A stretch of 64,000 nucleotides of DNA from Micromonospora luteifusca (GTDB lineage Bacteria; Actinomycetota; Actinomycetes; Mycobacteriales; Micromonosporaceae). Under the pieces are notes generated by a model. It did not search any database. It saw only the letters and a list, made by a program, of their open reading frames with translations, and had not been told where the DNA came from. Position 1 is the first letter of the stretch; the number at the start of each line of letters is the position of its first letter. A program made the position numbers and the translations under genes. Below are positions 2,871-17,457 of this stretch, in pieces. The stretch spans positions 992,001 through 1,056,000 of the forward strand of contig NZ_JAFBBP010000001.1 in assembly GCF_016907275.1 (NCBI RefSeq). Reading direction: 5' to 3'.

Positions 2871-3917
2871 TTGCTGGACCTGCTGGGTGTGCACTCCCAG
2901 CGGGAGGTGTCCCCGGCCCGGCATCGCACCACTGCGGCCATGCGCGCTCAGGCAGAGTTGCAGGGCCGACACCTTGGCGGCCGGCCACCCTACGGCTACC
3001 GGCTCGCCGACGCAGGCCCTCATCCGAACCGCGCCCACGCCGCCTGGGGACGGCGCCTGCACCGCTTGGAGCCCGACCCTGCCACCGCACCCCACGTACG
3101 GTGGATCTTCGAGCAGCGGCTCGCCGGCCGGAGCGTGGCCAGCATCGCTCGCGCCCTCAACGACAACGGCGTCCTGTGCCCGTCCGGCGCCGACCCAGCG
3201 CGTAACCCCCACCGCAGCGGCCGCCAGTGGATGCTGACCACTGTCGCGGCGATCCTGGCCAACCCCCGTTACACCGGGCGGCAGGTCTGGAACCGTCAAC
3301 GCACCGACCACGACGACATCGAACCGGACGGCACCATCACCAGACACCATGAGATCCAACGGTGGAGCGCCTCCACCGACTGGGTCATCTCCCGCGAGAT
3401 CGCGCATACTCCGATGGTCAGCGAAGAACACTTCGTCGCCGTCCAGGCAATCCATACCGCGCCGACCCCAGCCGACGGCATCCCCCGCTGCTACGTGTTG
3501 GCCGGAGTGATCTGCTGCGGCGTGTGCGGCCGGATCATGGACTCCCGCTGGGTCCACGACCGTGCCGGCTACCGATGCCGACACGGCAACACCAGCACCA
3601 GCCCCTCCTCGTCGAGACGACAGAAGACCCTCTACGTCCGAGAGGACCATCTCCTGGACAGGATTCGACACGACAGCTGCCTGCGTAGGCATCACCCGGC
3701 GATGCGCGACCAGGATCCAGACAGCGTCGCGGGCTACCTGCGGCTCAACAACATGATCATCGTGTGTGACCACGACGCCTGGACCATCGAAACTGACACG
3801 GCGGTCTTCCCGCTCACCGCCCCGACGAGCGTCCTGCCCCGCACAGCGAAAATCCCCGCCCAACGGGACGGGGATCGCTCGAAACGCGAAGAAGAATCAC
3901 GCTTCGTGGGGAAATGA
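2871..3917 (+). pseudogene. Large serine recombinase lacking its catalytic resolvase domain
   Basis: The protein reads as the Recombinase domain (RHLGGRPPYGYRLADAGPHP, then VRWIFEQRLAGRSVASIARA and ILANPRYTGRQVWNRQRT) followed by a zinc-ribbon region (CCGVCGRIMDSRW, then YRCRH). The expected first 150 or so residues, which carry the nucleophilic Ser of the resolvase fold, are absent. The frame is open a little upstream of the TTG at 2871 but reads as junction sequence, not resolvase. The remnant points toward the tRNA and ends 3 bp from it. It is either a dead integrase of an element at this tRNA or a fragment brought in with the IS630 piece. Confidence 0.75.
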
Positions 3918-4003: not shown

Positions 4004-4234
4004 CTACACGTTCAGCCTACCTCGCCGACCAGATGATCTTTCCATCCGGTGTCGGCACGGCGGGCCGCACGGGGAGTTACTGTACACGCCACTCGTGGAT
4101 CATGCACATCGCCTTCCGGTGCCCCTCCCCCAGCGCTCCAGCCGCTGCTCAAACCGCCTCGCAGGCGCTCATCGACACCACTGCGGGGCGTGTCCGGCTA
4201 GCGTTCGGTGGCCCTCTGGCGGCAGCATTGCCAC

Positions 4235-7078
4235 GTGTCCCATCCCTCCCCCCTGGCAGCCGCCCAGCATCGGGCCCTCGCCCTGCGCGCCGCAGGCGAC
4301 CTCAGCGCCTCCCGGCAGCTGCTCGCGGAGGCCGTCGGATCCGCTCCCCCGCCGTACGGTGCCGACCACCCCGAGATGCTGCACACCGCACACCTGTTGG
4401 CCCGGCTGCACCGCGAGGCGGACGACCTTCTCGCCGCCCGCCGGGTGCTCGAGGAGGCGTTCGCGGCGGGCGAGCGGCGCTGGGAGCACTCCGACCCGGT
4501 GTTGCTCGCCCTCGCCTTCGAACTCGGCGAGTTGGCGGAGGAGTTGGGCAACCGGCACGAGGCCCGCCGCAACTACACCCGCGTCGCCACGGCCGGGCCC
4601 GCCACGCTCGGGGAGCACCACCCGGCGGTACGCGCGGCCCGCGACTATCTCGGCTCGCCCGCTCCAGCGCCGCACGAGCAGCACGGCCCACCGCCGACGC
4701 CCGGTCCGGACCGGGCCGCCACGGCGACGGAGTCGGCCACCCGGTCGGCCCTGTCCGGCCCGACCCTGTCCATGGCGACCCTGGCCGCGATGCGGCCCTC
4801 CGCTGGTGGCCCGTCGGCCGCCAGCTCACCGTGGGCTCCGCCGCAACCGCCGGCCACACCCCGAGCAACCCCTCCTGGGGTACGCGGACCCGCCGCGCCC
4901 GCCCCCATCACCACAGCGCCGGCTCCAGCTTCCCGGCTGACACCTGCCCAGCCGACACCTTTCTCGAACACTTCGACGCAGCCCAGCCCGGCGACCGCCG
5001 AACCCAGGCCCTCGGTACCGCCGCGTCAACGCGCCAACCACCAACCGCCCGGGACCGACCAGTCGGTGGCCGGCCAGCCACCCCGGCCCAGGGCCGAGAG
5101 CCAGCCACCCCCGCCGAGAGCGGAAAGCCAACCACCGTCGAGGGCCGCAAGCCAGCCCAGGGCCCAGGATCAGCCGCCCCGTTCGTCCGGTCAGCGGCCA
5201 CCGCAGCGACCGCCGTCCGGGCCAGCCGTAGCGCCCCGTCAACGCATGGGCGACCCGGCGAACCACCCGGCGGTCGACGTGCGACACCAGCCGTCCACCC
5301 CACCGGCCCCGGCGCCGAGCGTCACCACGCCAGCGTCGGGGGTGCCGGCACCACGCTGGGACAACCCCACAATCCAGGTACGACAGATCGAACCGCTACT
5401 CGTCGAGGAGGCTGCCCGAGCCGCAGCCAGACCAACGGGGGTGGGTGGACCGGTCGACGCATCCGGCGCCGAGGCGACGTCGCCCGGTGGGCCCTCCCCT
5501 ACCAACCGGCAGCCAGGGCCGGCGCATCCGGTGAGCGGAGCACCAGCCCACCCGGTCAGCGGGCCACCCGTGTCTCCACAGCCGACCTCCGCGCCACCTG
5601 GCCACCCGTACCCCGTCTCCGGACCACCCGGCCAGCCATACCCTGTCTCGGGACCACCCGGCCAGCCATACCCCGCCTCCGGACAACCGGGCCAGCCGTA
5701 CCCGGTCTCGGGACCACCCGGCCAGCCGTACCCCGTCTCGGGACCACCCGGCCAGCCATACCCGGTCTCCGGACCGCCGGGCTACGGGCCACCCGTGTCG
5801 GCGCCACCCGGGCACACCTATCCGGTGTCCGCTCCGCCCGGTTCCGGGCAGTCAGTTTCGGCGCCGCCTTACGGGCAACCCGTGTCCGCGCCTCCGGTGA
5901 GCGCACCGCCTGTGCCGCCGTGGGGGATGACCGCGCCGCCGTGGAGCCGCAGCGCTCCACCACAACCCCTGCCGGCTCCCGGCGCCGTCTCCGCTGAGCG
6001 ATCCCCGGTAGACACGGGAAGCGCCGGCGTGGACGGTGAGCTCGGACTGGGCAGCGCCGACGCCACGGTGGTGCCGACACCGCAGGCCGGGGTAGCGCCG
6101 TCGGACCAGACCGTGGTGTTCGCGTCCGTCCCAGCGGACCGTGGCCCGACCAGGGGTGACACCAGTTCGAGCCAGCCCGTCGCCGCGCAGCCGGTGCCGA
6201 CGGCCACGCAGCCGAGCCCACTCGCCGCGCAGCCGAGCCCGACGGCCGCGCAGCCAAACCCACTCGCGGCACAGCCGAGCCCAAAGGCCGCGCAGCCGAG
6301 CCCGCACGCCGCACAACCGAGCCCGGTCGCGGCCTCGGCCGGGCCGACTCCGGCAGCCTGGTCATCGGAGACCGGAGCCGACCCGGCGGGGCCGTGGCCA
6401 GCCGCCCCGCAACCGACGCCGCAGCACCACCAGGGCCAGTACCCGCCCCAGGGCCAGGGCCAGTACCCCACTCAGGACCAGTACCCAACCCAGGGCCAAG
6501 GCCAGTACCCCACTCAGGACCAGTACCCAACCCCGGCGCTGTACCCGGGTCAGCAGTACCACCCGGTACCGGACCCGTACCGGCCGGCGTACGCCGATGA
6601 GGGCGGGTCGGCGGGCCGCAGCCGTGCGACGCTGATCGGCGCGGTGGTAGCTGCCGGGGTGGCCGTCGTGGCGGTGGCCGGCCTGGGTGCGGTGGTGTTG
6701 ACCCGCGACGATCCGCCGCCCTCCGGGACCGCGCCGGCGGCGGCGGGACCGACTGCGGCCGGGCCCCCGCCCGGCGACGTGAAGCTACGTGATGACTCGA
6801 CCACGATCACGCTGACCTGGACGGACCCGTCCGGCGGCGCGGTGCCGTTCATGGTGGCCGCCGGTCGGGCCGGGCAGCCCCTGGGAGTGATGGCCACGGT
6901 GGACCCGGGTAAGACCAGTTACACGGTCAACGGGTTGAACTCGCGGGTGGATCACTGCTTCACGGTGTTGGCGGTCTACTCCACCGACAGCTTCGCGACC
7001 TCGGGGCAGGTCTGTACGGCTCGGGAGCGCACCACCCCGTCGAGCGGCAAGCCCTCGGCCGGAGCGACGCCACGCTGA
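4235..7078 (+). CDS. TPR, Pro-rich repeat and FnIII single-pass membrane protein
   Basis: About 947 residues. The N-terminal 140 residues look like TPR helices (LALRAAGDLSASRQLLAEAV; LLALAFELGELAEELGNRHE). Then comes a very long Pro/Ser/Gln-rich tract with six perfect-length PVSGPPGQPY-type decapeptides, an AAQPSP-type run and a QGQGQYPTQDQYPT-type run. One membrane segment follows (ATLIGAVVAAGVAVVAVAGL), then a C-terminal domain resembling fibronectin type III (TITLTWTD; KTSYTVNGL; HCFTVLAVYS). The predicted layout is a cytoplasmic TPR region and linker with an external FnIII domain. The GTG at 4235 gives MSHPSPLAAAQ. An upstream in-frame ATG at 4208 is possible but neither has a clear ribosome site. 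It lies upstream of the FnIII/MoxR/DUF58 genes on the same strand. Function unknown. Confidence 0.75.
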   Translation: MSHPSPLAAAQHRALALRAAGDLSASRQLLAEAVGSAPPPYGADHPEMLHTAHLLARLHREADDLLAARRVLEEAFAAGERRWEHSDPVLLALAFELGELAEELGNRHEARRNYTRVATAGPATLGEHHPAVRAARDYLGSPAPAPHEQHGPPPTPGPDRAATATESATRSALSGPTLSMATLAAMRPSAGGPSAASSPWAPPQPPATPRATPPGVRGPAAPAPITTAPAPASRLTPAQPTPFSNTSTQPSPATAEPRPSVPPRQRANHQPPGTDQSVAGQPPRPRAESQPPPPRAESQPPSRAASQPRAQDQPPRSSGQRPPQRPPSGPAVAPRQRMGDPANHPAVDVRHQPSTPPAPAPSVTTPASGVPAPRWDNPTIQVRQIEPLLVEEAARAAARPTGVGGPVDASGAEATSPGGPSPTNRQPGPAHPVSGAPAHPVSGPPVSPQPTSAPPGHPYPVSGPPGQPYPVSGPPGQPYPASGQPGQPYPVSGPPGQPYPVSGPPGQPYPVSGPPGYGPPVSAPPGHTYPVSAPPGSGQSVSAPPYGQPVSAPPVSAPPVPPWGMTAPPWSRSAPPQPLPAPGAVSAERSPVDTGSAGVDGELGLGSADATVVPTPQAGVAPSDQTVVFASVPADRGPTRGDTSSSQPVAAQPVPTATQPSPLAAQPSPTAAQPNPLAAQPSPKAAQPSPHAAQPSPVAASAGPTPAAWSSETGADPAGPWPAAPQPTPQHHQGQYPPQGQGQYPTQDQYPTQGQGQYPTQDQYPTPALYPGQQYHPVPDPYRPAYADEGGSAGRSRATLIGAVVAAGVAVVAVAGLGAVVLTRDDPPPSGTAPAAAGPTAAGPPPGDVKLRDDSTTITLTWTDPSGGAVPFMVAAGRAGQPLGVMATVDPGKTSYTVNGLNSRVDHCFTVLAVYSTDSFATSGQVCTARERTTPSSGKPSAGATPR
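5609..5788 (+). repeat. Six tandem 30-bp units encoding PVSGPPGQPY-type decapeptides
   Basis: The units start at 5609, 5639, 5669, 5699, 5729 and 5759. They differ by a few synonymous or conservative changes, one reading PASGQPGQPY. More diverged copies flank the block on both sides. The repeat lies in frame within the Pro-rich linker of the preceding gene, so copy number can vary without frame loss. Confidence 0.95.
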
Positions 7079-7254
7079 GGTGAGCTGAGCTGAACCGAGC
7101 TGAGCTGGGCGTCCACACCGCACACGCTCGGTATCCACAGGGGTGACGGTGCGGGTTCCCCCGTCACCAGCAGCGCCATATGATGGCACCCGGCTCAGGG
7201 GAGGGGTCGCCGCGAGGCGCGCCACCTGCCACGACTCAGGGGAGGCAGCCGGCT

Positions 7255-9882
7255 GTGGCCAGCATCGACGACGCCGTACGGACCGACGCCCCCCGCCCCC
7301 GGTCCCGGCTTCGGGGCGGGCTGGTGACCGTTGGCACGGTGACCGCGCTGCTGGCCGCCATGGGGTTGACCGTCCTCGGGCTCGGCGCAGCCGACAACGC
7401 GGTGGCGAATTACGACGCGAGTTCCTGGCTCTGGAGCGCGGCGCGCAGCGAGTTGGCCCGGGTCAACGGGGTCACCGCCCGGGTGGACACCCGCACCGAG
7501 ATTCCCAACGCCCGTCAGCACCCGATGCAGATCGCCCAGACCGACCGGCTGCTGATCCTGCGTGACCTGCAGACGGGGCAGATCAGCTCATTGGACCTGG
7601 CGACCCTGCAGCTCAGCGCGACCACCAAGACCACCCCTGGCCTGGGCGTGAGTGTCGCCCTGCACGAGGATTCGGCGTTCGTCGTCGACGCCGTGCAGGG
7701 CATCGTGCGGCAGCTCGACCCGCGGTCGCTGACGCCGGTCGGCGAGCCGGTGCGCTATCCGCCGGGCATCACCGGCGGCACCTTCGACGGTAAGGGTCGG
7801 CTCTGGATCGCGGTGCCCAGCGAGGGCACCGTTTCGGCGATCACCGCCGCCACGTTGCCGTCCGCGCCGGCCTCGGCCGCGCCCGCCGGGGCGGGGCTCA
7901 GCCCGAAGCGTGTCGAGGCGTACGACGTCGCCGAGGCCAGCCACGAGCTGGTGGTCTCCACCCTGGACGACGGTGTTGCGGTGCTCGACCGCACGGCCGG
8001 GAAGCTGGTGCGGGTGCAGCGGGGCGAGGTTCATCCGACGCCGTTGACGCTGTCCGGTCCGGCGGCGCTGCCCGCGCGCACCAGCGGGCAGCGGGTCCCG
8101 GTCACCGTGCCCGCCGAGCGGCGGGTGCTGGTGGTGGGTGACGGTGGTGAGGAGCGGGCGTTCACGGTGCCGGGTGAGGGCGACCGGCTCAGCCCGGCGG
8201 TGGCCTGGGCGGATCGCTTCTACTGCGCCGACGAGGCCACCGGCACGATCTACGCGTTCGATGCGGGCGGTCAGCTGGTCGAGACCATCCGCGGGCGGGC
8301 GAACGGGCCGATGGAGCTGGAAGTACGCGAGAATCACCTGTTCATCAACTCCCCGGACGCGGCGACCGCTCGGGTGGTGGACGACAAGCACCAGGTGCGC
8401 GAGGTCAACAAGTACGCCAACGACGTGCTCGGCGGCGACCCGCCACCGGTTGCCCCGCCGCCGCCCCCGCCGAAGAAGCCCCGGGTGGGCAAGCCGAGCG
8501 CGCCCCGCAGCGTCACCGCCGCGGCCGGCAACGCTCAGGCGCGGGTGAGCTGGCGGCCGGCCGCCGCCAACGGTGCCGAGATCATCAAGTACGTGGTGGA
8601 GGGCGCCGGTCAGCGCCTGGAGGTGGGTGCCAACCAGCGTGCGGTGGAAGTCAAGGGTCTGACCAACGGCGAGACGTACCGGTTCGCGGTGCACGCCGTC
8701 AACGCCAAGGGCGACGGTCCGTCGCGCAACAGCAACCCGGTGACCCCGACCGCGGCGGTGCCCGACCCGCCGGCCAGCGTCACCGCCCAGGAGCGGCCCG
8801 ACGGCACGGTGCTGGTGAAATGGCCGGCGGCGAACGGGCAGGGCAACACCATCGCGAGGTACGCGGTCACGGCCAGTTCCGCGGGGGCGAACGCGCCGGC
8901 CGGTGAGTCGACGAAGACGGAGCTGGTCGTGCCCGCCGGTGAGTTGGAGTTCGGCACCCAGTACGCGTTCACCGTGGTGGCGGTCAACGCCAAGGGCGCC
9001 GGGTCGGCGGCGTCGCCGATCAGCAACACGGTGGTGCCCTTCGCGGCGCCCGGTCGGCCGCTCGACCTGAGTGCCGGCACGGTCGCCAACCAGCCGGGTG
9101 CGGTCACGGTGCAGTGGTCGCCGGCCGAGGCGAACGGCCGCCCGGTGACGAAGTACCTGGTGGACGTTGGTGGGCGCGTCAGCGAGGTGGCCGACACCCG
9201 CACCACCGTCACCGGGTTGGGCAACGGCCAGAACGTCACGGTGAAGGTGAAGGCGGTCAACGAGGCAGGGCCCGGCCCGGAGGCGACCGCCACCGCACGG
9301 ACGGTCGCCGAACCTCGGGTCACGGTGACCGGCTCGTCGGCGACGGCCACCTCGGCGACGGTGACGTTCACCGTGGACGCTGGTGGAGGTCAGGCCACCT
9401 GCTCGGTGAGCACGCCGGGGAAGCCGGCGAAGGCCGGGGCGTGCTCCAGCATCACGGTGCCGGGCCTGACGCCGGGCACGAAGTACACGTTCACGGTGAC
9501 GGCTACCAACGCCGCCGGTAACGGCACAGCGACGAAGGCGCAGGAAACGCCCCCGCTGTACGGGATCGCGACCTGCAACAACGGGCCGGACGGCGACCAG
9601 CGGACCTACTGCAACGAGGAAGTCGACGGCCGCAACGGTAACGAGGTCTTCAAGGTCACCCGGCAGGACAACGACCAGCAGGCTGGCTGGGCGAAGCCCG
9701 GTACCCGGCTGCAGGCGTACTGCAAGAAGGCCGGTGAGGACGTCGACTCCTGGATCTACAACAATCAGAAGCGCAGCACCTGGTGGGTGCAGGTCGACTT
9801 CAAGGGTGGTAAGAACTACATCCCTTGGGCCTGGCTCAACCTGGAGGGCGGCGACAACATCAACGTCCTGCCCACCTGCTGA
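7255..9882 (+). CDS. Membrane-anchored beta-propeller-like protein with FnIII repeats
   Basis: About 875 residues. A signal-anchor (LVTVGTVTALLAAMGLTVLG) is followed by about 350 residues of repeated beta-strand pattern with LDLATLQL, LDPRSLTPVG and VLDRTAGKLV motifs, suggesting a propeller-like sensor or binding fold. A Pro-rich spacer (VAPPPPPPKKPRVGKPSAP) then leads to about four FnIII domains (AQARVSWRPAAANGAEI; GTVLVKWPAANGQGN; GAVTVQWSPAEANGRPV; SATVTFTVDAGG). A Cys-containing C-terminal domain ends in WAWLNLEGGDN. GTG at 7255 was chosen because AGGGGAGG lies 9 nt upstream; ATG at 7180 is also in frame. It is followed after 27 bp by the MoxR gene. It is likely an exported surface protein working with the MoxR-DUF58-TgpA genes. 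Confidence 0.8.
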   Translation: MASIDDAVRTDAPRPRSRLRGGLVTVGTVTALLAAMGLTVLGLGAADNAVANYDASSWLWSAARSELARVNGVTARVDTRTEIPNARQHPMQIAQTDRLLILRDLQTGQISSLDLATLQLSATTKTTPGLGVSVALHEDSAFVVDAVQGIVRQLDPRSLTPVGEPVRYPPGITGGTFDGKGRLWIAVPSEGTVSAITAATLPSAPASAAPAGAGLSPKRVEAYDVAEASHELVVSTLDDGVAVLDRTAGKLVRVQRGEVHPTPLTLSGPAALPARTSGQRVPVTVPAERRVLVVGDGGEERAFTVPGEGDRLSPAVAWADRFYCADEATGTIYAFDAGGQLVETIRGRANGPMELEVRENHLFINSPDAATARVVDDKHQVREVNKYANDVLGGDPPPVAPPPPPPKKPRVGKPSAPRSVTAAAGNAQARVSWRPAAANGAEIIKYVVEGAGQRLEVGANQRAVEVKGLTNGETYRFAVHAVNAKGDGPSRNSNPVTPTAAVPDPPASVTAQERPDGTVLVKWPAANGQGNTIARYAVTASSAGANAPAGESTKTELVVPAGELEFGTQYAFTVVAVNAKGAGSAASPISNTVVPFAAPGRPLDLSAGTVANQPGAVTVQWSPAEANGRPVTKYLVDVGGRVSEVADTRTTVTGLGNGQNVTVKVKAVNEAGPGPEATATARTVAEPRVTVTGSSATATSATVTFTVDAGGGQATCSVSTPGKPAKAGACSSITVPGLTPGTKYTFTVTATNAAGNGTATKAQETPPLYGIATCNNGPDGDQRTYCNEEVDGRNGNEVFKVTRQDNDQQAGWAKPGTRLQAYCKKAGEDVDSWIYNNQKRSTWWVQVDFKGGKNYIPWAWLNLEGGDNINVLPTC

Positions 9883-9909
9883 AACACCAGGCGAGGAGCA
9901 CCACCGACC

Positions 9910-10905
9910 GTGAACACCCACGAGCCGCTCACCCAGCCGGAGGTGCAGGGCTTCGCCGCCCTCGCCGCCCGGCTGGCCGAGAACATCAACGCGGTGGTGC
10001 TCGGCAAGCCGCAGGTGGTTCGGCTGGCGTTGACCGCGCTCTTCGCGCAGGGTCACGTGCTTCTGGAGGACGTGCCCGGAGTCGGTAAGACGACCCTGGC
10101 GCGGGCCATCGCCGCCACGGTGAAGGGCGAGTGGCGGCGCATCCAGTTCACGCCCGACCTGCTCCCCTCGGACGTGTCCGGGGTGACGATCTTCAACCAG
10201 GCGACCAGGGACTTCGAGTTCCACCCGGGGCCGGTCTTCGCCAACATCGTCATCGCCGACGAGATCAACCGGGCGTCGCCGAAAACCCAGTCGGCGTTGC
10301 TGGAGGTCATGGAGGAACGCACCGTCACCGTGGACGGGGTCCGGCATCCGGTGCCGTCGCCGTTCCTGGTGGTGGCCACGCAGAACCCGGTCGAGATGGA
10401 CGGCACCTACCGGCTGCCCGAGGCGCAACTGGACCGTTTCCTGGTCAAGCTGTCCGTCGGTTACCCGGACGAGGCGGTCGAGGTGGAGGTGCTGCGCGGC
10501 GCGACGGTGCGCTCCCCGGAGGCACTCACCCCGGTGACCGACACCGCCACCGTCGGGGAGATGGTCCGGATGGCCCGCCGGGTGCACATCGCCGAGCCGC
10601 TCTACGCGTACGCGGTCCGGCTGGCCGCCGCCACCCGCACCCACCCGCACGTGCGGGTCGGAGTCAGTCCCCGAGGTGTGATCGCGTTGACGCGTGCCGC
10701 GTGCGCGTACGCGCTGATCGACGGGCGGGGCTGGATCATGCCGGAGGATCTGAAGGCGCTCGCTGAGGCGGTGTTCGCGCATCGGCTGCTGCTCACCCCG
10801 GACGCCCAGGTGCGCGGGATGACCGCCGCGGAGGTGCTGCGCCAGGCCATCGCCTCGGTGCCGGTGCCCCTGCCGTCGGGGCAGCCCGCTCCGGTGCAGG
10901 GCTGA
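9910..10905 (+). CDS. MoxR-family AAA+ ATPase
   Basis: 331 residues from a GTG at 9910, behind GGCGAGGAG. Walker A is DVPGVGKTT with Lys60, Walker B is NIVIADEINRA with Asp117-Glu118, and a sensor-1-like ATQNP follows. The length is typical of MoxR proteins. These ATPases remodel or activate partner proteins, often with VWA or DUF58 proteins encoded next door, as here. The gene lies between the FnIII protein and the DUF58 gene with gaps of 27 and 14 bp, so an operon is likely. A cytoplasmic chaperone role for the membrane cluster is an inference from family context. Confidence 0.95.
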   Translation: MNTHEPLTQPEVQGFAALAARLAENINAVVLGKPQVVRLALTALFAQGHVLLEDVPGVGKTTLARAIAATVKGEWRRIQFTPDLLPSDVSGVTIFNQATRDFEFHPGPVFANIVIADEINRASPKTQSALLEVMEERTVTVDGVRHPVPSPFLVVATQNPVEMDGTYRLPEAQLDRFLVKLSVGYPDEAVEVEVLRGATVRSPEALTPVTDTATVGEMVRMARRVHIAEPLYAYAVRLAAATRTHPHVRVGVSPRGVIALTRAACAYALIDGRGWIMPEDLKALAEAVFAHRLLLTPDAQVRGMTAAEVLRQAIASVPVPLPSGQPAPVQG

Positions 10906-10919
10906 CCGGCAGCACCGGC

Positions 10920-12107
10920 ATGGGGATCACCGCCCGCGGGGTCGGGCTGCTCGTCGCCGCCGTCGTGCTGTTGGGGGCGGGTTTCCGGTTCGCGTACCCC
11001 GAGTTGACGCTGCTTGGCGCGGCAGCCGGAGCGGCCGTCGCCTATGCCGCTCTGGTCGCGGCCTGGCGGCCCCGGCTGACGGTGACCCGCCGCGCCGACC
11101 CGGACCGGGTGGCACGCGGCGAGCCGGCGAGCATGACGTTGACCGTGCGCAACACCGGCCGGCTGCGGTCGGCGAACCTGCTGGCCGAGGACCGGTGCGG
11201 GGAGCGCACCGTGCCGGTGCCGGTGTTGCGCCTGCGGCCCGGTCGGGACACTGAGGTCCGCTACGACGTGCCGACCCATCGTCGCGGGGTGGTGCCGGTC
11301 GGGCCGCTGCGGGTGACTCGCCGCGACCCGCTGGGGTTGGTGGCGTTGGCCCGCCCGTACGGTGCGGCGGTGCCGGTCTGGGTGCACCCCCGCATCCATC
11401 CGCTGGCGGCGGTGCCCCGCGGCTCGGGGCGCAGCCTCGACGGTCGGGTGGACGGGGTGCCCCACGGGTCGATCACGTTCGACTCGCTGCGCGAGTACGT
11501 GGTCGGTGACGAGCTGCGTCGGGTGCACTGGCGGACCAGTGCCCGGGTGGGTGAGCTGATGGTGCGCGAAAACGTGGACACCAGCCTGCCGCGTCTGGTC
11601 GTACTGCTGGACAACCGTGCCGCCGGGCACCCGGAGCGGGTGGCGGGGGTGGCCGAGTCGTTCGAGTCGGCCTGCGAGGCGGCGGCGTCGATCGTCACCG
11701 CCGCACACCGCGCGGACCTGCCCGTGTTGTTGCTGTTGGCCGCCGCGCAGCCGGACACCGCAGCCGAGGCGGGCACGCCCGGCGGGGACGCGGACGTCGG
11801 GCCGGTTCTCGGGCCGCTGGACCGGCTCGCTGCCGCCGAACTGTCCGCCGACGACGGCGCGGTACGCGCGGCAACCACCCGGCTGCGCCAGGACCGGCTC
11901 GGTGACACGCTGATCTTCCTGACCGGGCCTGGTGGCCGGGACGAGCTGGGACACGTCGGGGCGCTGCGCGGGGCGTACCCGTCGGTGGTGGTGGGGGTGT
12001 TCGGCGCGGCCGAGCCGACGCCGCCGGGCACGGCCGGTCTGGTGGTGGTCGACGCGGCGGACGGCGCGCAGTTCGCCGCCGAGTGGGACGGGGTACGCCG
12101 GTGGTGA
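10920..12107 (+). CDS. DUF58 membrane-associated protein
   Basis: 395 residues. Two N-terminal hydrophobic segments (GVGLLVAAVVLLGAG; LLGAAAGAAVAYAALVAAW) are followed by a beta-rich region. The hallmark DUF58 motif is REYVVGDELRRVHWRTSARV, and a VWA-like fold follows (RLVVLLDN; DTLIFLTGPGG). DUF58 proteins are constant partners of MoxR ATPases and membrane transglutaminase-like proteins. The stop overlaps the GTG of the next gene (GTGA), implying translational coupling. The exact biochemical role of DUF58 is not established. Confidence 0.92.
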   Translation: MGITARGVGLLVAAVVLLGAGFRFAYPELTLLGAAAGAAVAYAALVAAWRPRLTVTRRADPDRVARGEPASMTLTVRNTGRLRSANLLAEDRCGERTVPVPVLRLRPGRDTEVRYDVPTHRRGVVPVGPLRVTRRDPLGLVALARPYGAAVPVWVHPRIHPLAAVPRGSGRSLDGRVDGVPHGSITFDSLREYVVGDELRRVHWRTSARVGELMVRENVDTSLPRLVVLLDNRAAGHPERVAGVAESFESACEAAASIVTAAHRADLPVLLLLAAAQPDTAAEAGTPGGDADVGPVLGPLDRLAAAELSADDGAVRAATTRLRQDRLGDTLIFLTGPGGRDELGHVGALRGAYPSVVVGVFGAAEPTPPGTAGLVVVDAADGAQFAAEWDGVRRW

Positions 12108-14485
12108 CGGGCGCCGTGCGGGTGCTGCGGGCGGCGATCGTCCCGCTGGCGCTGATCGGGTTGACCGCGCTCGCCGGGGTGGTGCTCGGCCGGGTGTACG
12201 CGGGTGACCTGCTGACCTGGCTGGTCATCGGCGCGGCGGTCGGTTCGGTGCTGGTCAGCGTGGCCGCCCGGCGGCTGCCGTCCTGGCTGGTGGCACCGGT
12301 GTCGGTCGCCGCGATGGCCGGCTGGACACTCTGGTCGCTGCGGCTGGCCGCCGCTCACGCCGAGCTTCCCGGCGGCCTGCTGGAGATCACTGCGGACGCC
12401 GCTCGCAACGGCATTCCTCGGCTGCTCACCGCGATGATCCCGGTGGAGCCCACACCGGACACGGTGCTGGTGCCCGTCGTCGCCGCCTGGCTGACCGGGC
12501 TGGCCGGTGCGGAGGTGGCGCTGCGCGCCGGCCGGGTGCTGCTGGGCTACCTGCCGGCGGCGGGGCTCTACGCCGCCGCCCTCTACGTGGTCGGCCCGAA
12601 TGCCGCCCCGGCGGTCGGGGCGACGCTGGCGTTCGTCACGGTCGCGGCGGTCGGCCTGGCAGCCCCCGCCAGGACGACACCGGCCGGCGGGGATCCGACC
12701 GCCGAGCTGGCTCCCCGGGTACGCGCGGCGGTGCGGCTCCGGCTGGCCACCAGCGCGGCGCTCGGGGTGGCCCTGGTGGTCGGGCTGGTCGCACTGCTCG
12801 GCCCGGTCCTCGCCGACCAGGTCGACGGTCGGCCGGTGGACCCGCGCCGGTACGTGGAACCACCGCAGGTGCAGACGCTCGACGAGAACCCGTTGATCCG
12901 GATCTCGGGCTGGGCGTTGCATCCGGAGCAGAAACTTCTCGATGTGAGCACGGAGCGTGCCGCTGCCCAGGCCGGCGACACCGCACCGAGCGCAGAGCCG
13001 GCCACCGAGGACAGGCCGGCGGCGAACGACACGGGCGGCGCGAGCGTCCGGATCCGGTTGGCGGTGCTCAGCGACTACGACGGGGTGACCTGGCGGGTCG
13101 GCGCGACGTACCGCAACGCCGGGCGGATCCTGCCGGCTGCCACAGCGCCGCGCGACAGCACGGTGCGGACGGTCCGCCAGCAGGTCACCGTGGCGGAGTT
13201 GAGCGGGCGGCTCCTGCCCGCCGTGGCGACACCCCGGGAGGTCAGCGGGGCGCGGGTGGCGTACGACCAGGCGAGCGGGACGTTGATCAGGCCGGAGGGG
13301 TTGACGCCGGGCCTGCGGTACGCGGTGACCTCTGCCGAGGAGCACCCGGACTCGAACCTGTTGGCGACGGCGAACGTACCGGCCGGTGAGGAGGTGGCCC
13401 GGGTACTGCGGGTCGCCGACGGGGTGCCCGACCCGATGCGTCGGCTGGCCGCGCAGCTCGCCGAGGAGAACGGCGCCCCGTACGCCCGGGCTCTGGCGAT
13501 CGAGCAGTTCCTGTCCGAGCACTATCGGGTGGTGGCGGACGCGCCCAGCGGGCACGCGTACCCGAATCTGGGTTTCTTTCTTTACGGACCTCGGAACGGC
13601 GGCGGGCAGGAGGGCACCTCGGAGCAGTTCGCGGCGGCGTTCGCGGTGCTCGGCCGGCTGTCCGGGCTGCCGACCCGGGTGGTGGTGGGTTTCCGTGCTC
13701 GCGGGCAGGGGCCGGTGCTGGCCGGTGACGCGTTCGCCTGGCCGGAGGTGCTCTTCGACGGGTTGGGTTGGGTGTCGTTCGACCCGCTGCCTCGCCCGAA
13801 CGAGGAGCCGAGGCCGGTGGAGGAGGATTTCCGCCCGACGCCGGAGGATCCGCCGCCGTCGGAGGCACCGGAGCCCACCGTGGAGCCGAGCGCGTCGCCG
13901 GAGCCGGTGGCCGCCCCCGCGGGGCCGCCCGGCCGTGACGGTGTGTCCACTCCGGTGCTCGTCGCCGGGGGCAGCGGTGGCCTGTTGCTGCTGGTAGGGG
14001 CGCTGCTGCTCACCCTGTTGGCGATGCGCCGCTCGCTCACCCGCGCCCGGCTCGGTTGGGGTGACCCCGGTCAGCGCATCGCTGGCGCCTGGCGGGAGGT
14101 CACCGACGCGCTGCGGCTGGCCGGCCGACCGGTCGGTGACGACCTGGCGGCAACCGAGGTGGCCGGGCACGCCCGCCAGGCCCTCGCCGAGGCCCGAGCC
14201 CGCCGAGCCGGCAGCGACACCGACAGCAGTGGTGGTGGTGATGCCGCCGCGGGTGCGGACGTCGGCGGCGTCGACGAGTTGGCGGAGCTGCTGAATCGGG
14301 TGGGCTTCGCCCCGGATGCGGCTACGCCGGACCAGGCGACCCGGGCCGCCGAGGCGGCCAGCGTCTACGTGGCCACCCTGCGGGCAGCGCGCCCCTGGTG
14401 GCGCCGCGTGCTCTGGTCAACCAACCCAACCCCCCTACGCCAAGCCCACCACTCCCCCCACCACCCCAAGCGGCCCCAGCGGTGA
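12104..14485 (+). CDS. TgpA-like membrane protein with a degenerate transglutaminase domain
   Basis: About 793 residues. Five or six N-terminal membrane segments, for example IVPLALIGLTALAGVVLG and LATSAALGVALVVGLVALLG, precede a large external region. A transglutaminase-like core reads GTSEQFAAAFAVLGRLSGLP, then GDAFAWPEVLF and WVSFDPLP. A last membrane segment (VAGGSGGLLLLVGALLLTLL) leads to a cytoplasmic DUF4129-like tail. In active members the first motif carries the nucleophilic Cys (GxCEx) and the second a His (DAHAW). Here they are Ser506 and Phe544; Asp560 is kept. The protein is therefore probably not a peptidase or transglutaminase in the classical sense. Start GTG 12104 overlaps the DUF58 stop; GTG 12101 is also possible. 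Confidence 0.85.
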   Translation: MTGAVRVLRAAIVPLALIGLTALAGVVLGRVYAGDLLTWLVIGAAVGSVLVSVAARRLPSWLVAPVSVAAMAGWTLWSLRLAAAHAELPGGLLEITADAARNGIPRLLTAMIPVEPTPDTVLVPVVAAWLTGLAGAEVALRAGRVLLGYLPAAGLYAAALYVVGPNAAPAVGATLAFVTVAAVGLAAPARTTPAGGDPTAELAPRVRAAVRLRLATSAALGVALVVGLVALLGPVLADQVDGRPVDPRRYVEPPQVQTLDENPLIRISGWALHPEQKLLDVSTERAAAQAGDTAPSAEPATEDRPAANDTGGASVRIRLAVLSDYDGVTWRVGATYRNAGRILPAATAPRDSTVRTVRQQVTVAELSGRLLPAVATPREVSGARVAYDQASGTLIRPEGLTPGLRYAVTSAEEHPDSNLLATANVPAGEEVARVLRVADGVPDPMRRLAAQLAEENGAPYARALAIEQFLSEHYRVVADAPSGHAYPNLGFFLYGPRNGGGQEGTSEQFAAAFAVLGRLSGLPTRVVVGFRARGQGPVLAGDAFAWPEVLFDGLGWVSFDPLPRPNEEPRPVEEDFRPTPEDPPPSEAPEPTVEPSASPEPVAAPAGPPGRDGVSTPVLVAGGSGGLLLLVGALLLTLLAMRRSLTRARLGWGDPGQRIAGAWREVTDALRLAGRPVGDDLAATEVAGHARQALAEARARRAGSDTDSSGGGDAAAGADVGGVDELAELLNRVGFAPDAATPDQATRAAEAASVYVATLRAARPWWRRVLWSTNPTPLRQAHHSPHHPKRPQR

Positions 14486-14567: not shown

Positions 14568-15359
14568 TTAGGGGGTCAGGCGGCGGATGAGTTTGCGCAT
14601 GCCGGCCTGCCAGCCGTCCGGGTCCTCGGCGCGGCGGCGCGCGTAGTCGGCGACCTCCGGGTGCGGCAGGATCAGGAAACGCTCCTCGGCCAGCCCGGCG
14701 ATGGCCGCGTCGGCGACCTGGTCCGGGGTGAGCACCGCACCGGACGCGGCGACCACCCGGGCGCCGAGGTGGCCCTCGGCGATCCCGTCGGCGAGCATCG
14801 GGGTGTCCACGCCCTGGGGGCAGAGCGCGCTGACCCGGATGCCCCGGTCCCGGTAGGTGATGGCCAGCCACTCGGCGAACCCCACCGAGGCGTGCTTCGT
14901 CGCGGTGTACGCGGCGTCACCCACCGCGGTCAGCACACCCGCCGCCGAGCAGGTGTGCAGCAGGTGGCCGCCGCCCCGTGCGAGCATTCCGGGCAGCACC
15001 GCCCGGGCCGAGTAGACGTGGGCGAGCACGTTGACCCGCCACGCTCGGTCCCAGCCGGTGTCGTCGACCTCCACTCCCCCGCCGGTGGTCACGCCCGCGT
15101 TGGCGCAGAACAGGTCGATTCGGCCGTACCGTTCCTCGGTGTCGGCGACCAGCGCGCGGACCTGCTCCTCGTCGGTGACGTCGAGTGCGATGGCGTGCGC
15201 GACCGGGCCGATGCTCTCGGCCACCGCGTCCGCCGCTTCGGCGTTCAGGTCGGCGACCACGATGGCGGCGGCACCCTCGGCGGCGAAGCGACGCGACAGC
15301 GCGGCCCCGATGCCGCCGCCGGCACCGGTGACCACCACGATCCGGTCGGTGAGGTTCAC
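14568..15359 (-). CDS. Short-chain dehydrogenase/reductase
   Basis: 263 residues with the classical SDR layout. The nucleotide-binding motif is VVTGAGGGIGAAL, the acidic adenine-site residue is in VADLN, NAG is in FCANAGV, and the catalytic Ser and YxxxK are in CSAAGVLTAVGDAAYTATKH. The YxxxK reads YTATK. It should reduce or oxidise an alcohol/ketone using NAD(P). The GTG start at 15359 overlaps the stop of the LLM-class oxidoreductase gene (GTGA), so the two are one transcript and may act on related substrates. The substrate cannot be read from sequence. Confidence 0.92.
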   Translation of the reverse strand: MNLTDRIVVVTGAGGGIGAALSRRFAAEGAAAIVVADLNAEAADAVAESIGPVAHAIALDVTDEEQVRALVADTEERYGRIDLFCANAGVTTGGGVEVDDTGWDRAWRVNVLAHVYSARAVLPGMLARGGGHLLHTCSAAGVLTAVGDAAYTATKHASVGFAEWLAITYRDRGIRVSALCPQGVDTPMLADGIAEGHLGARVVAASGAVLTPDQVADAAIAGLAEERFLILPHPEVADYARRRAEDPDGWQAGMRKLIRRLTP

Positions 15360-16340
15360 GCGGACGCTCCTGTGGGGTCGGCGCCCAGTTGGGCGATGAG
15401 GGTGAGCAGCGCGGTCGTGCCGCCGGCGGTCACCTCCGGGGTGGGCAGCAGCGCGAGCACCGGCACATCCACGCCGGCGTCGGCATAGCGGCGCACCTCG
15501 GCGCGGCACCGCTGGGGTGAGCCGTGCAGCACCAGGGCGTCGACCACGTCGTCCGGCACTGCCGCGCTGGCGCCGCGCCGGTCTCCGGCGGCCCAGGCCT
15601 CCCACATCGGCGCCAGGGCTTTGTCGCGGCCGAGCCAGCGGTGGAACTCGGCGTACGCTCCGACGGTGAGGTAGCTGGTGATGAGCCGGCGGCCCAACGC
15701 GCGGGCGTAGGTGGCGTCCTCGGTGGGGCAGACGAAGATTCGGGCGGCGACCTCGAAGCCGGCACGCCGCTCGCCCAGCTCGGCGAGGGCGCGCGGCACG
15801 TCGTCGGCGCTGAGCCAGTTGAGGATGACCCCGTCGGCCTCCGCGCCGGCCAGCCGGAGCATCCGCGGGCGCAGCGCGGCGAGCAGGATCGGTGGCGGCA
15901 CCGCTGGTGGTCGTTCCAGCGTGAACCGGCGCACGGTGAACGTGTCGTAGGCCTCGTCGACGGTCTCCCCATGCAGCGCGGCGCGCAGGAAACGCAGCAT
16001 GTCGCGGGTCCGCCGGAACGGCTCGTGGAACGGCACGGAGTTCCAGTCCTGCACGAGCACCGGTGAGGACGCGCCGATGCCGAGCGAGAACCGGCCCGGC
16101 GCGGCCTCGGCCAACGCCGCCGCGCTCATCGCCAGCAGCCCCGGGCCCCGGGTGAAGACCGGCGTGATCGCGGTGCCCAGCCGCAGCCGGGGCTGCCACG
16201 CCGCGGCGAGCGCCAGCGGGGTGAACGCGTCGGTCCCGGCGACCTCGGACGACCAGACGTCGGTGAACCCGGCCCGGTCGAGGGCCGCGTAGCCGGCGTC
16301 ATGGTCGGTCAATGCGAGGCCACCGAGCGGTACCGTCATG
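15356..16340 (-). CDS. LLM-class F420/FMN-dependent oxidoreductase
   Basis: 327 residues from ATG 16340 (MTVPLGGLALTDHD). Family patterns include GFTDVWSSEVAGTDAF, RLRLGTAITPVFTRGPGLLA, GRFSLGIGASSPV and LLAALRPRMLRLAGAEADGV. These match luciferase-like monooxygenases of the F420-dependent type found in actinobacteria. It is first in a two-gene operon with the SDR gene. It probably carries out a redox step on a small organic substrate in the cytoplasm. F420 rather than FMN is an expectation from the taxon, not visible in the sequence. Confidence 0.88.
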
Positions 16341-16593
16341 CCCCATCGATTCGTCACCGATCGATCGTGCCCGTTGACGGGGCACACGAGCAAGATCCCC
16401 GTACTGGGCAGAATCGCCGGTTTCCGGCCCTGCCCAGCACCGACGGTGCTACGACTTCGAGGATGTCGGCGACCGTGAACGCGCGTGCCGAGATCGCCGG
16501 GCGCACGGTGCCCCACCGGAGGCCGCCGCGCCGCCCTTCTGATCCATCGGAGTACGACGATGTCATGCCGACCCGGCCGGATAGGCTCAGCGG

Positions 16594-17457
16594 GTGACCT
16601 TCTCGCTCGTCGCCCGCTCCGCCGACGGCCGCCTGCATGGCGTCGCCGTCGCCAGCAAGTTCCTCGCCGCCGGTGCGCTGGTGCCGGCCGCCGCCGCCGA
16701 GGTCGGCGCACTGGCCACCCAGGCGCACGTCAACCTCGCCTACCGCCCGCAGGGCCTCACCCTGCTGCGTACCGGGGTGGCCGCCGCCGACGTGGTGGCC
16801 GGGCTGGTCGCCGCCGACCCCGAGCGGGAGCACCGCCAGCTCGGCGTGGTGGGGGTCAGCGGTTCGGGCGCCAGTTGGACCGGGCCGGCCTGCCATCCGT
16901 GGGCGGGCGGGCGGACCGGCGACGGCTGGGCCGCGCAGGGCAACGTGCTCACCGGCCCGGAGGTCGTCGACGCACTGGGTGACGCCTGGCTGGCCGGGTC
17001 GGCGCTGCCGTTCGCCGAGCGGCTCGTCGCCGCGCTGCGGGCCGGCGACGAGGCCGGCGGCGACCGGCGGGGCCGGCAGAGCGCCGGCCTGCTGGTGGTC
17101 CAGCGTGGCGGAGGGTACGCCGGCGGCAGCGATGTGCTGGTGGATCTTCGGGTGGACGACCACCCGGACCCGGTCGCCGAGTTGAGTCGGCTGCTCACCG
17201 TGCACACGATGCTGTTCAGCCGACCTGACCCGGCCACCCTGCTCGACCTGAGCGGCGCGGTCGCCGAGGAGGTGGCCGCCCTGCTCGGCGCGCTGGGCCA
17301 TTCGGTGGCGGACGACGGGACCGAGGCGGCGTTGATCTCCTGGGCCGGGCTGGAGAACCTGGAGGAGCGGCTCGTGCCGGGGCGGATCGACCCGGTGGTG
17401 TTGACGCACCTGCGCGGCGTCGCCCCGCACGTCCCCGCCCCCCGCTCCGCGAGCTGA
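16594..17457 (+). CDS. DUF1028 family protein
   Basis: 287 residues from GTG 16594. It begins FSLVARSADGRLHGVAVASK, contains AHVNLAYRPQGLTLLRTGVA, then AAQGNVLTGPEVVDAL and SAGLLVVQRGGGYAGGSDVL. These are hallmarks of DUF1028, which resembles the Ntn-hydrolase fold and is often found with amidase or catabolic genes. A C-terminal extension (SRPDPATLLDLSG onward) has a peptidoglycan-binding-like helix pattern, as in several members. It is divergent from the LLM gene with 253 bp between them. No catalytic function has been established for the family. Confidence 0.85.
   Translation: MTFSLVARSADGRLHGVAVASKFLAAGALVPAAAAEVGALATQAHVNLAYRPQGLTLLRTGVAAADVVAGLVAADPEREHRQLGVVGVSGSGASWTGPACHPWAGGRTGDGWAAQGNVLTGPEVVDALGDAWLAGSALPFAERLVAALRAGDEAGGDRRGRQSAGLLVVQRGGGYAGGSDVLVDLRVDDHPDPVAELSRLLTVHTMLFSRPDPATLLDLSGAVAEEVAALLGALGHSVADDGTEAALISWAGLENLEERLVPGRIDPVVLTHLRGVAPHVPAPRSAS

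Follow-up and report, generated by a model that had tools for sequence, protein, structure and literature searches.

The closest described counterpart of the locus analyzed here is the PFNA operon of Bifidobacterium, pkb2-fn3-aaa-atp-duf58-tgm, which is presented as a species-specific cluster whose tgm product is a transglutaminase or a presumed cysteine protease (PMC8430577, PMC6803598) and whose FN3 product is reported to bind cytokines and to mediate adhesion (PMC8430577, PMC12607495). The present work concerns a window of 64,000 nucleotides (the whole stretch analyzed) from the 7.16 Mb, one-contig genome of Micromonospora luteifusca, in which five genes on the + strand between positions 4208 (or 4235) and 14485 encode, in this order, a TPR-linker-transmembrane-FnIII protein (protein 1), a propeller-FnIII protein (protein 2), a MoxR ATPase, a DUF58 protein and a TgpA-like protein. 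The last of these has the transglutaminase-like fold and belongs to that sequence family, but both its catalytic Cys and its catalytic His are gone, unlike TgpA of Pseudomonas aeruginosa, which has the full triad (PDB 6G49/6G4H) and measured transglutaminase activity (PMC3507681); it is called pseudo-TgpA below. The reading we favor, with a probability of roughly 0.6, is that, within a MoxR/DUF58 membrane machine handling the propeller-FnIII protein, pseudo-TgpA provides docking and not catalysis.

The window shares with the Bifidobacterium loci the order and strand of the fn3-MoxR-DUF58-tgm genes; the Bifidobacterium fn3 product has a propeller and FnIII domains and is homologous to protein 2, and tgm is Cys-less in all Bifidobacterium proteins examined. 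However, the first gene is the Ser/Thr kinase gene pkb2 in Bifidobacterium and encodes the TPR-headed protein in Micromonospora, so that the window holds a variant and not the Bifidobacterium operon itself. A scan of named genomes gave 75 loci, 74 from Bifidobacterium or Bifidobacteriaceae and one from Actinotalea; propeller, MoxR, DUF58 and tgm occur together in 72 of them, and the three without the propeller are cut by contig ends. The inactive site in Bifidobacterium reads GDSEQYA, then mostly D-x-T/E/Q/A-AWVE and FYPTP, and in the 75 rows whose first motif is readable, Cys, His and Asp are each absent from their triad places (the acid place was read in all but one). The scan used a peptide pattern containing Ser, and its Ser count is biased for that reason; a protein search not restricted by this pattern gave, among the best 120 of 172 tgm homologs, Ser in 119, Ala in one and Cys in none, with no His in the His place of any of the 118 readable proteins. 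B. longum is not named among the matches, and large clusters such as P0261 (13261 members) carry the same motif. Known, then, is the PFNA cluster type in Bifidobacterium; apparently new are a tgm without the catalytic Cys and the propeller as a conserved feature of its partner, for neither of which was a mention found in the accessible portions of open-licence PFNA papers, and which may be in print elsewhere. Since no Bifidobacterium protein examined has a catalytic Cys, models of PFNA host signaling need another role for tgm. At one locus (L262 9785-12300, B. saguini) tgm lies in two overlapping frames, 9785-10711 and 10678-12300, owing to a true break or to an assembly error.

Two further bacterial arrangements resemble the locus in part. 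The canonical actinobacterial MoxR-DUF58-TgpA module has the same three genes together, but its TgpA retains Cys and His in all 47 proteins compared here and is accompanied by neither a propeller nor an FnIII match. In the MoxR-vWA-beta-propeller ternary systems, too, a MoxR comes with a partner of the vWA type and with propellers (PMC7159879), and the bpMoxR Pfam model matches the MoxR of the window at 37.1 bits (27-bit cut-off). In those systems, however, vWA protein and propeller form one fusion, a third component has a propeller as well, most members come from other phyla, and GXXXTAKS is often the P-loop of MoxR (PMC7159879); in the window the P-loop is PGVGKT, the DUF58 protein has no propeller match in Pfam, and the propeller is on the separate membrane-anchored protein 2. 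The nearest functional parallel is eukaryotic: EPB42 (erythrocyte protein 4.2), an inactive human transglutaminase-like protein (PMC10318531), by analogy with which pseudo-TgpA, whose inactive site is seen directly, might bind partners non-catalytically; the similarity score Z to EPB42 may mean just a common fold.

The inactive core and its shifted constraint

The initial annotation held that Ser and Phe replace the catalytic Cys and His and that the Asp is kept. The two codons that it named read as claimed and the Asp is retained (Table 1), and alignment to active TgpA, a check it had proposed, places Ser513 at the Cys position and Phe551 at the His position. There is no Cys in the whole of pseudo-TgpA, and displaced catalysis was rejected on that ground; transglutaminase-type catalysis is excluded as far as sequence can exclude it, and no other function is. 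Of 73 Cys-less homologs, 62 have no Cys within about 80 residues of the motif in either direction, four have one and seven have two.

A sequencing error, frameshift or misalignment as the source of these substitutions has practically no probability left, since the frame is open and the same Ser is found in independent genomes and in 121 of 121 Micromonospora proteins (the best 120 of 1074 homologs and the window protein, which is thereby counted twice). The His place in these proteins is held by Tyr (99), Phe (21) or His (1). The genus has a match to pseudo-TgpA in 60 of 61 genomes, and the named database matches of the window protein are from Micromonospora. The ratio of nonsynonymous to synonymous substitution rates (dN/dS) of 0.21 for Micromonospora pseudo-TgpA corresponds to purifying selection, and artefact or decay was rejected on this value together with the genus-wide Ser.

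A wider comparison drew on 120 homologs having a readable site. They lie in 119 regions, namely the window itself and 118 regions of actinobacterial genomes, of which one region comes from the window's own genome. The regions were picked from the matches to a profile derived from Cys-less proteins and from lower-scoring and paralogous matches; a duplicate region (L178) and a 100-base region (L186) were left out before counting. Cys is present at the site in 47 of the 120 and absent in 73, a ratio that is not a frequency because the regions were hand-picked from matches of a Cys-less-seeded profile. In its place stand S (31), D (25), A (5), E (5), G (2), T (2), P (2) or V (1), and the catalytic His is retained in 17 of the 73, as compared with all 47 Cys-bearing homologs. 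An unrooted tree of 118 homologs, in which the Cys and His residues were masked in every row, the Asp column was kept, and L190 and L182 were left out, separates the Cys homologs from the Cys-less ones along a single branch (support 100/97), one change being enough in 200 of 200 bootstrap trees; a quick tree that includes L190 and L182 also requires one change (support 90). The general role of Cys in the superfamily suggests that Cys is ancestral in this unrooted tree, and the change would then be a loss and not a gain. A sub-clade formed by regions L147, L158, L159 and L160 has GY[SAV]EQ at the site, with the Cys lost and the His and acid mostly kept, and its propeller gene lies downstream of TgpA; it looks like an intermediate stage. 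Regions L179 and L180, outside the window's class, have a Cys-less TgpA with GSPEQFA or GAPEQFA and W in the His place; upstream are an FnIII match in L179 and a 1215-residue frame in L180, neither of which is matched by the propeller hidden Markov model (HMM).

Constraint on the site differs between the two clades. Positions 513 and 551 are invariant in the Cys clade (47 of 47 each, entropy 0) and reach entropies of 2.10 and 3.42 bits in the Cys-less clade. Conversely, Glu514 and Gln515 are each found in 72 of 73 Cys-less proteins as against 28 and 30 of the 47 Cys-bearing ones, and His491 in 66 of 73 as against 10 of 47; G511, E514, Q515, W553 and E555 are kept in 72 or 73 of the 73. Such a shift is the pattern expected of a pocket that is kept for binding, and a scaffold or binding role would be consistent with it, with the fold and with the purifying selection.

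The same residues could instead belong to an enzyme with a rebuilt site, for instance one using His491 and Glu514 with Ser or Asp at 513, the more so as S or D holds the Cys place in 56 of 73. We consider this very improbable, because the nucleophile place is also taken by A, G, P or V, no consistent replacement triad appears, and the His place varies more than any other active-site column compared. An unlikely though more serious alternative is that the domain is a passive relic kept for folding or export; function would then lie with the membrane helices plus the C-terminal tail, working together with MoxR and DUF58. The invariant residues R665, G668 and W670 of the tail (in eight Cys-less sequences) speak for it, as does the mean entropy of the core, which is higher in the Cys-less clade (2.30 bits) than in the Cys clade (1.95 bits); retention of the active-site loops, the tighter constraint on 514, 515 and 491 than in active relatives, and the low dN/dS speak against it.

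Linkage to the propeller-FnIII protein

It had also been proposed to map whether the loss of Cys and His is clade-wide and tracks with the FnIII genes. Across the 120 homologs both prove true of the Cys and, in most members, of the His, with one amendment: the conserved feature of the partner is the beta-propeller, the number of FnIII domains varying from 0 to 6 by HMM. An FnIII HMM applied upstream on the same strand finds the partner at 55 of 73 Cys-less and at 0 of 47 Cys regions, and no FnIII match in any orientation was found in the 47 Cys regions. Because the 18 exceptions showed either a propeller without detected FnIII or a propeller gene that is divergent or downstream, the partner was redefined, after seeing the data, as the propeller. 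So defined, and with an HMM that was seeded on the window protein and iterated on the same regions in which it was counted, the partner lies near 66 of 73 Cys-less genes and near 0 of 47 Cys-bearing genes.

That the propeller-FnIII protein is a co-inherited neighbor with a job of its own, such as adhesion, sharing regulation but not a machine with pseudo-TgpA, is rather improbable in our estimate. A single clade origin would account for the linkage, and the cytokine-binding and adhesive activities reported for Bifidobacterium FN3 (PMC8430577, PMC12607495) would fit such a neighbor. The linkage nevertheless recurs in each of the 18 family codes with Cys-less loci, and rearrangement does not break it: in L145, L162, L164 and L148 the propeller gene is divergent relative to the module, and in L158, L147, L159 and L160 it lies downstream. 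Moreover, in the 10 genomes that carry both kinds of TgpA, the propeller accompanies the Cys-less locus in nine and the Cys locus in none. The presence of a live-looking and a dead TgpA module in one genome makes catalytic and non-catalytic roles genetically separable in a soil actinomycete, and such pairs offer a bounded test of MoxR-DUF58 module function. The much-annotated family of the 'transglutaminase domain-containing protein' divides into two clades, one enzymatic and one non-enzymatic, for which the propeller-FnIII neighbor is a clear marker.

A possible docking role in a MoxR-DUF58 machine

MoxR ATPases remodel complexes together with vWA-type partners (PMC7159879), and the ATPase motifs at these loci are intact: PGxGKT and DE[IV]NR are present in all 110 MoxR proteins assigned to loci (42 Cys, 68 Cys-less). 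The preferred P-loop is PGVGKT at Cys loci (39 of 42), as in the window, and PGTGKT at Cys-less loci (47 of 68). MoxR, DUF58 and TgpA genes stand together in 42 of 47 Cys regions. None of the 86 DUF58 proteins with an aligned site (of 117 matches) has the DxSxS motif; by an alignment that is shaky and given little weight, the vWA site reads D-x-R at Cys loci (D 35 of 35, R 32 of 35) and is relaxed at Cys-less loci (D 40 of 51, R 19 of 51). Three homologs of Bifidobacterium tgm, of 1214-1221 residues (P0277, P0284, P0286) carry both DUF58 and Transglut_core among their precomputed domains and are natural fusions, which suggests a physical link between the two partners.

Judged from synteny, MoxR would act on an assembly at the cell surface. 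Under the docking reading, the inactive groove with Glu514-Gln515 and His491 would bind without modifying, and the propeller-FnIII protein or its ligand would dock there on the outer side of the membrane; the membrane part of pseudo-TgpA would couple to DUF58 and MoxR on the inner side, where ATP hydrolysis by MoxR could remodel, release or switch the complex. Protein 1, or a kinase in relatives, might serve as a regulatory sensor that reports or sets the state of the complex. A broader and distinctly tentative extension is that of an ancient, actinobacterium-wide machine in which the transglutaminase of a MoxR-DUF58 module became a non-catalytic receptor on pairing with the propeller-FnIII protein. 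The tgm of PFNA would then be no enzyme but the docking subunit through which a cytoplasmic AAA+ motor acts across the membrane on FN3, and control would come from sensor heads of different kinds (kinase, degraded kinase or TPR) that replace one another on a common FnIII stalk.

Several observations weigh against the docking reading. In addition to the lower conservation of the core as a whole, the conservation of E514 and Q515 could be structural, since most active relatives have these two residues as well. The transmembrane and linker parts of pseudo-TgpA are modelled with low confidence (mean predicted local distance difference test score, pLDDT, 66.5), as is the loop with His491 (pLDDT 62-67). 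Seven of the 73 Cys-less regions have no propeller, three of them cut by contig ends, one with a run of N and three with no such cause. Since there is a single split between Cys and Cys-less homologs, the association may reflect shared ancestry, and the 120 loci do not count as that many separate tests; an independent-pairs test yields only one pair. The pairing itself is seen in the genes and not as a contact.

The initial annotation was correct in giving protein 1 a TPR head and a long repeat linker (TPR_12, E 1e-7, residues 17-87; repeats in Table 1). A transmembrane helix follows at residues 805-834 and an fn3 match at residues 854-925 (E 0.0017, 18.9 bits, below the Pfam cut-off of 25). 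Its gene is the first of the cluster, the place held in PFNA by the kinase Pkb2, and a kinase motif is found upstream of fn3 in several Cys-less regions. The FnIII tail of protein 1 also ends kinases that adjoin tgpA, downstream or convergent, in L112, L144, L107 and L152 (by Pfam) and L156 (by motif); kinase-like proteins without HRD carry it in L163 (clear in Pfam), L168 and L171 (weak) and L161 (motif only), and L105 and L106 have it without a kinase motif. Because this tail is common to kinases at related loci, protein 1 appears to be a membrane sensor of like kind that bears a different head, and the sensor slot looks interchangeable between TPR and kinase heads, the link through the tail being seen with the adjoining kinases. 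The tail is matched in 39 of 41 Micromonospora genomes, with two or more matches, some of them fragments, in 35 of the 41. One such protein in the window's own genome (L296 1597-3312, - strand, C1 about 5.006 Mb) is not a cluster kinase but a second TPR-like, Pro-rich, transmembrane and FnIII protein with this tail; the gene next to it looks, on inspection by eye, like one for a sensor histidine kinase.

Layout of the cluster and neighboring genes

The five genes are separated by short gaps and one overlap, a spacing compatible with a single predicted operon.

Table 1. Features of the propeller-FnIII/MoxR/DUF58/pseudo-TgpA cluster, in window coordinates.
Feature	Position	Strand	Remarks
Protein 1: cytoplasmic TPR head, Pro-rich linker, one transmembrane helix, one FnIII	4235..7078	+	start may be 4208
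Six copies of G[QH]PYP[VA]SG[PQ]P in the linker of protein 1	5600..5779	+	residues 465-524, ten-residue repeats
Protein 2: N-terminal transmembrane anchor, beta-propeller, four FnIII, C-terminal Cys-containing domain	7180..9882	+	homolog of Bifidobacterium fn3 product
Beta-propeller of protein 2	7405..8415	+	about residues 76-412
Four FnIII domains of protein 2	8497..9549	+	PF00041 E 1.3e-37, four stretches
MoxR AAA+ ATPase	9910..10905	+	AAA_3 E 3.2e-63; P-loop and Walker B intact
DUF58 membrane protein, 395 residues	10920..12107	+	DUF58 E 1.4e-7; two N-terminal transmembrane segments; vWA-like domain without DxSxS
Pseudo-TgpA: polytopic transmembrane N-terminus, transglutaminase-like domain (about residues 267-573, extracytoplasmic by topology), transmembrane segment, C-terminal tail	12083..14485	+	
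Transglutaminase-like core of pseudo-TgpA	13442..13786	+	
His491, conserved more in Cys-less proteins	13553..13555	+	loop pLDDT 62-67
Ser513 in catalytic Cys place	13619..13621	+	codon TCG
Glu514-Gln515, conserved more in Cys-less than in Cys-bearing proteins	13622..13627	+	
Phe551 in catalytic His place	13733..13735	+	codon TTC
Asp567 in catalytic acid place, retained	13781..13783	+	

Two incidental signals were set aside. VIA-align rows that pair model residues 40-120 with ion-channel helices were taken as chance helix matches, and a reading of the cluster as anti-phage defence was rejected, as PADLOC gave weak matches only (best E 3.1e-5). Upstream of the cluster, at window positions 2871-3917 on the + strand, lies a serine recombinase with a zinc ribbon (PF07508, E 2.3e-19), possibly the remnant of an integrated element. 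Downstream, convergent genes at 14568-16711 on the - strand encode a short-chain dehydrogenase and a luciferase-like monooxygenase, which look unrelated to the cluster.

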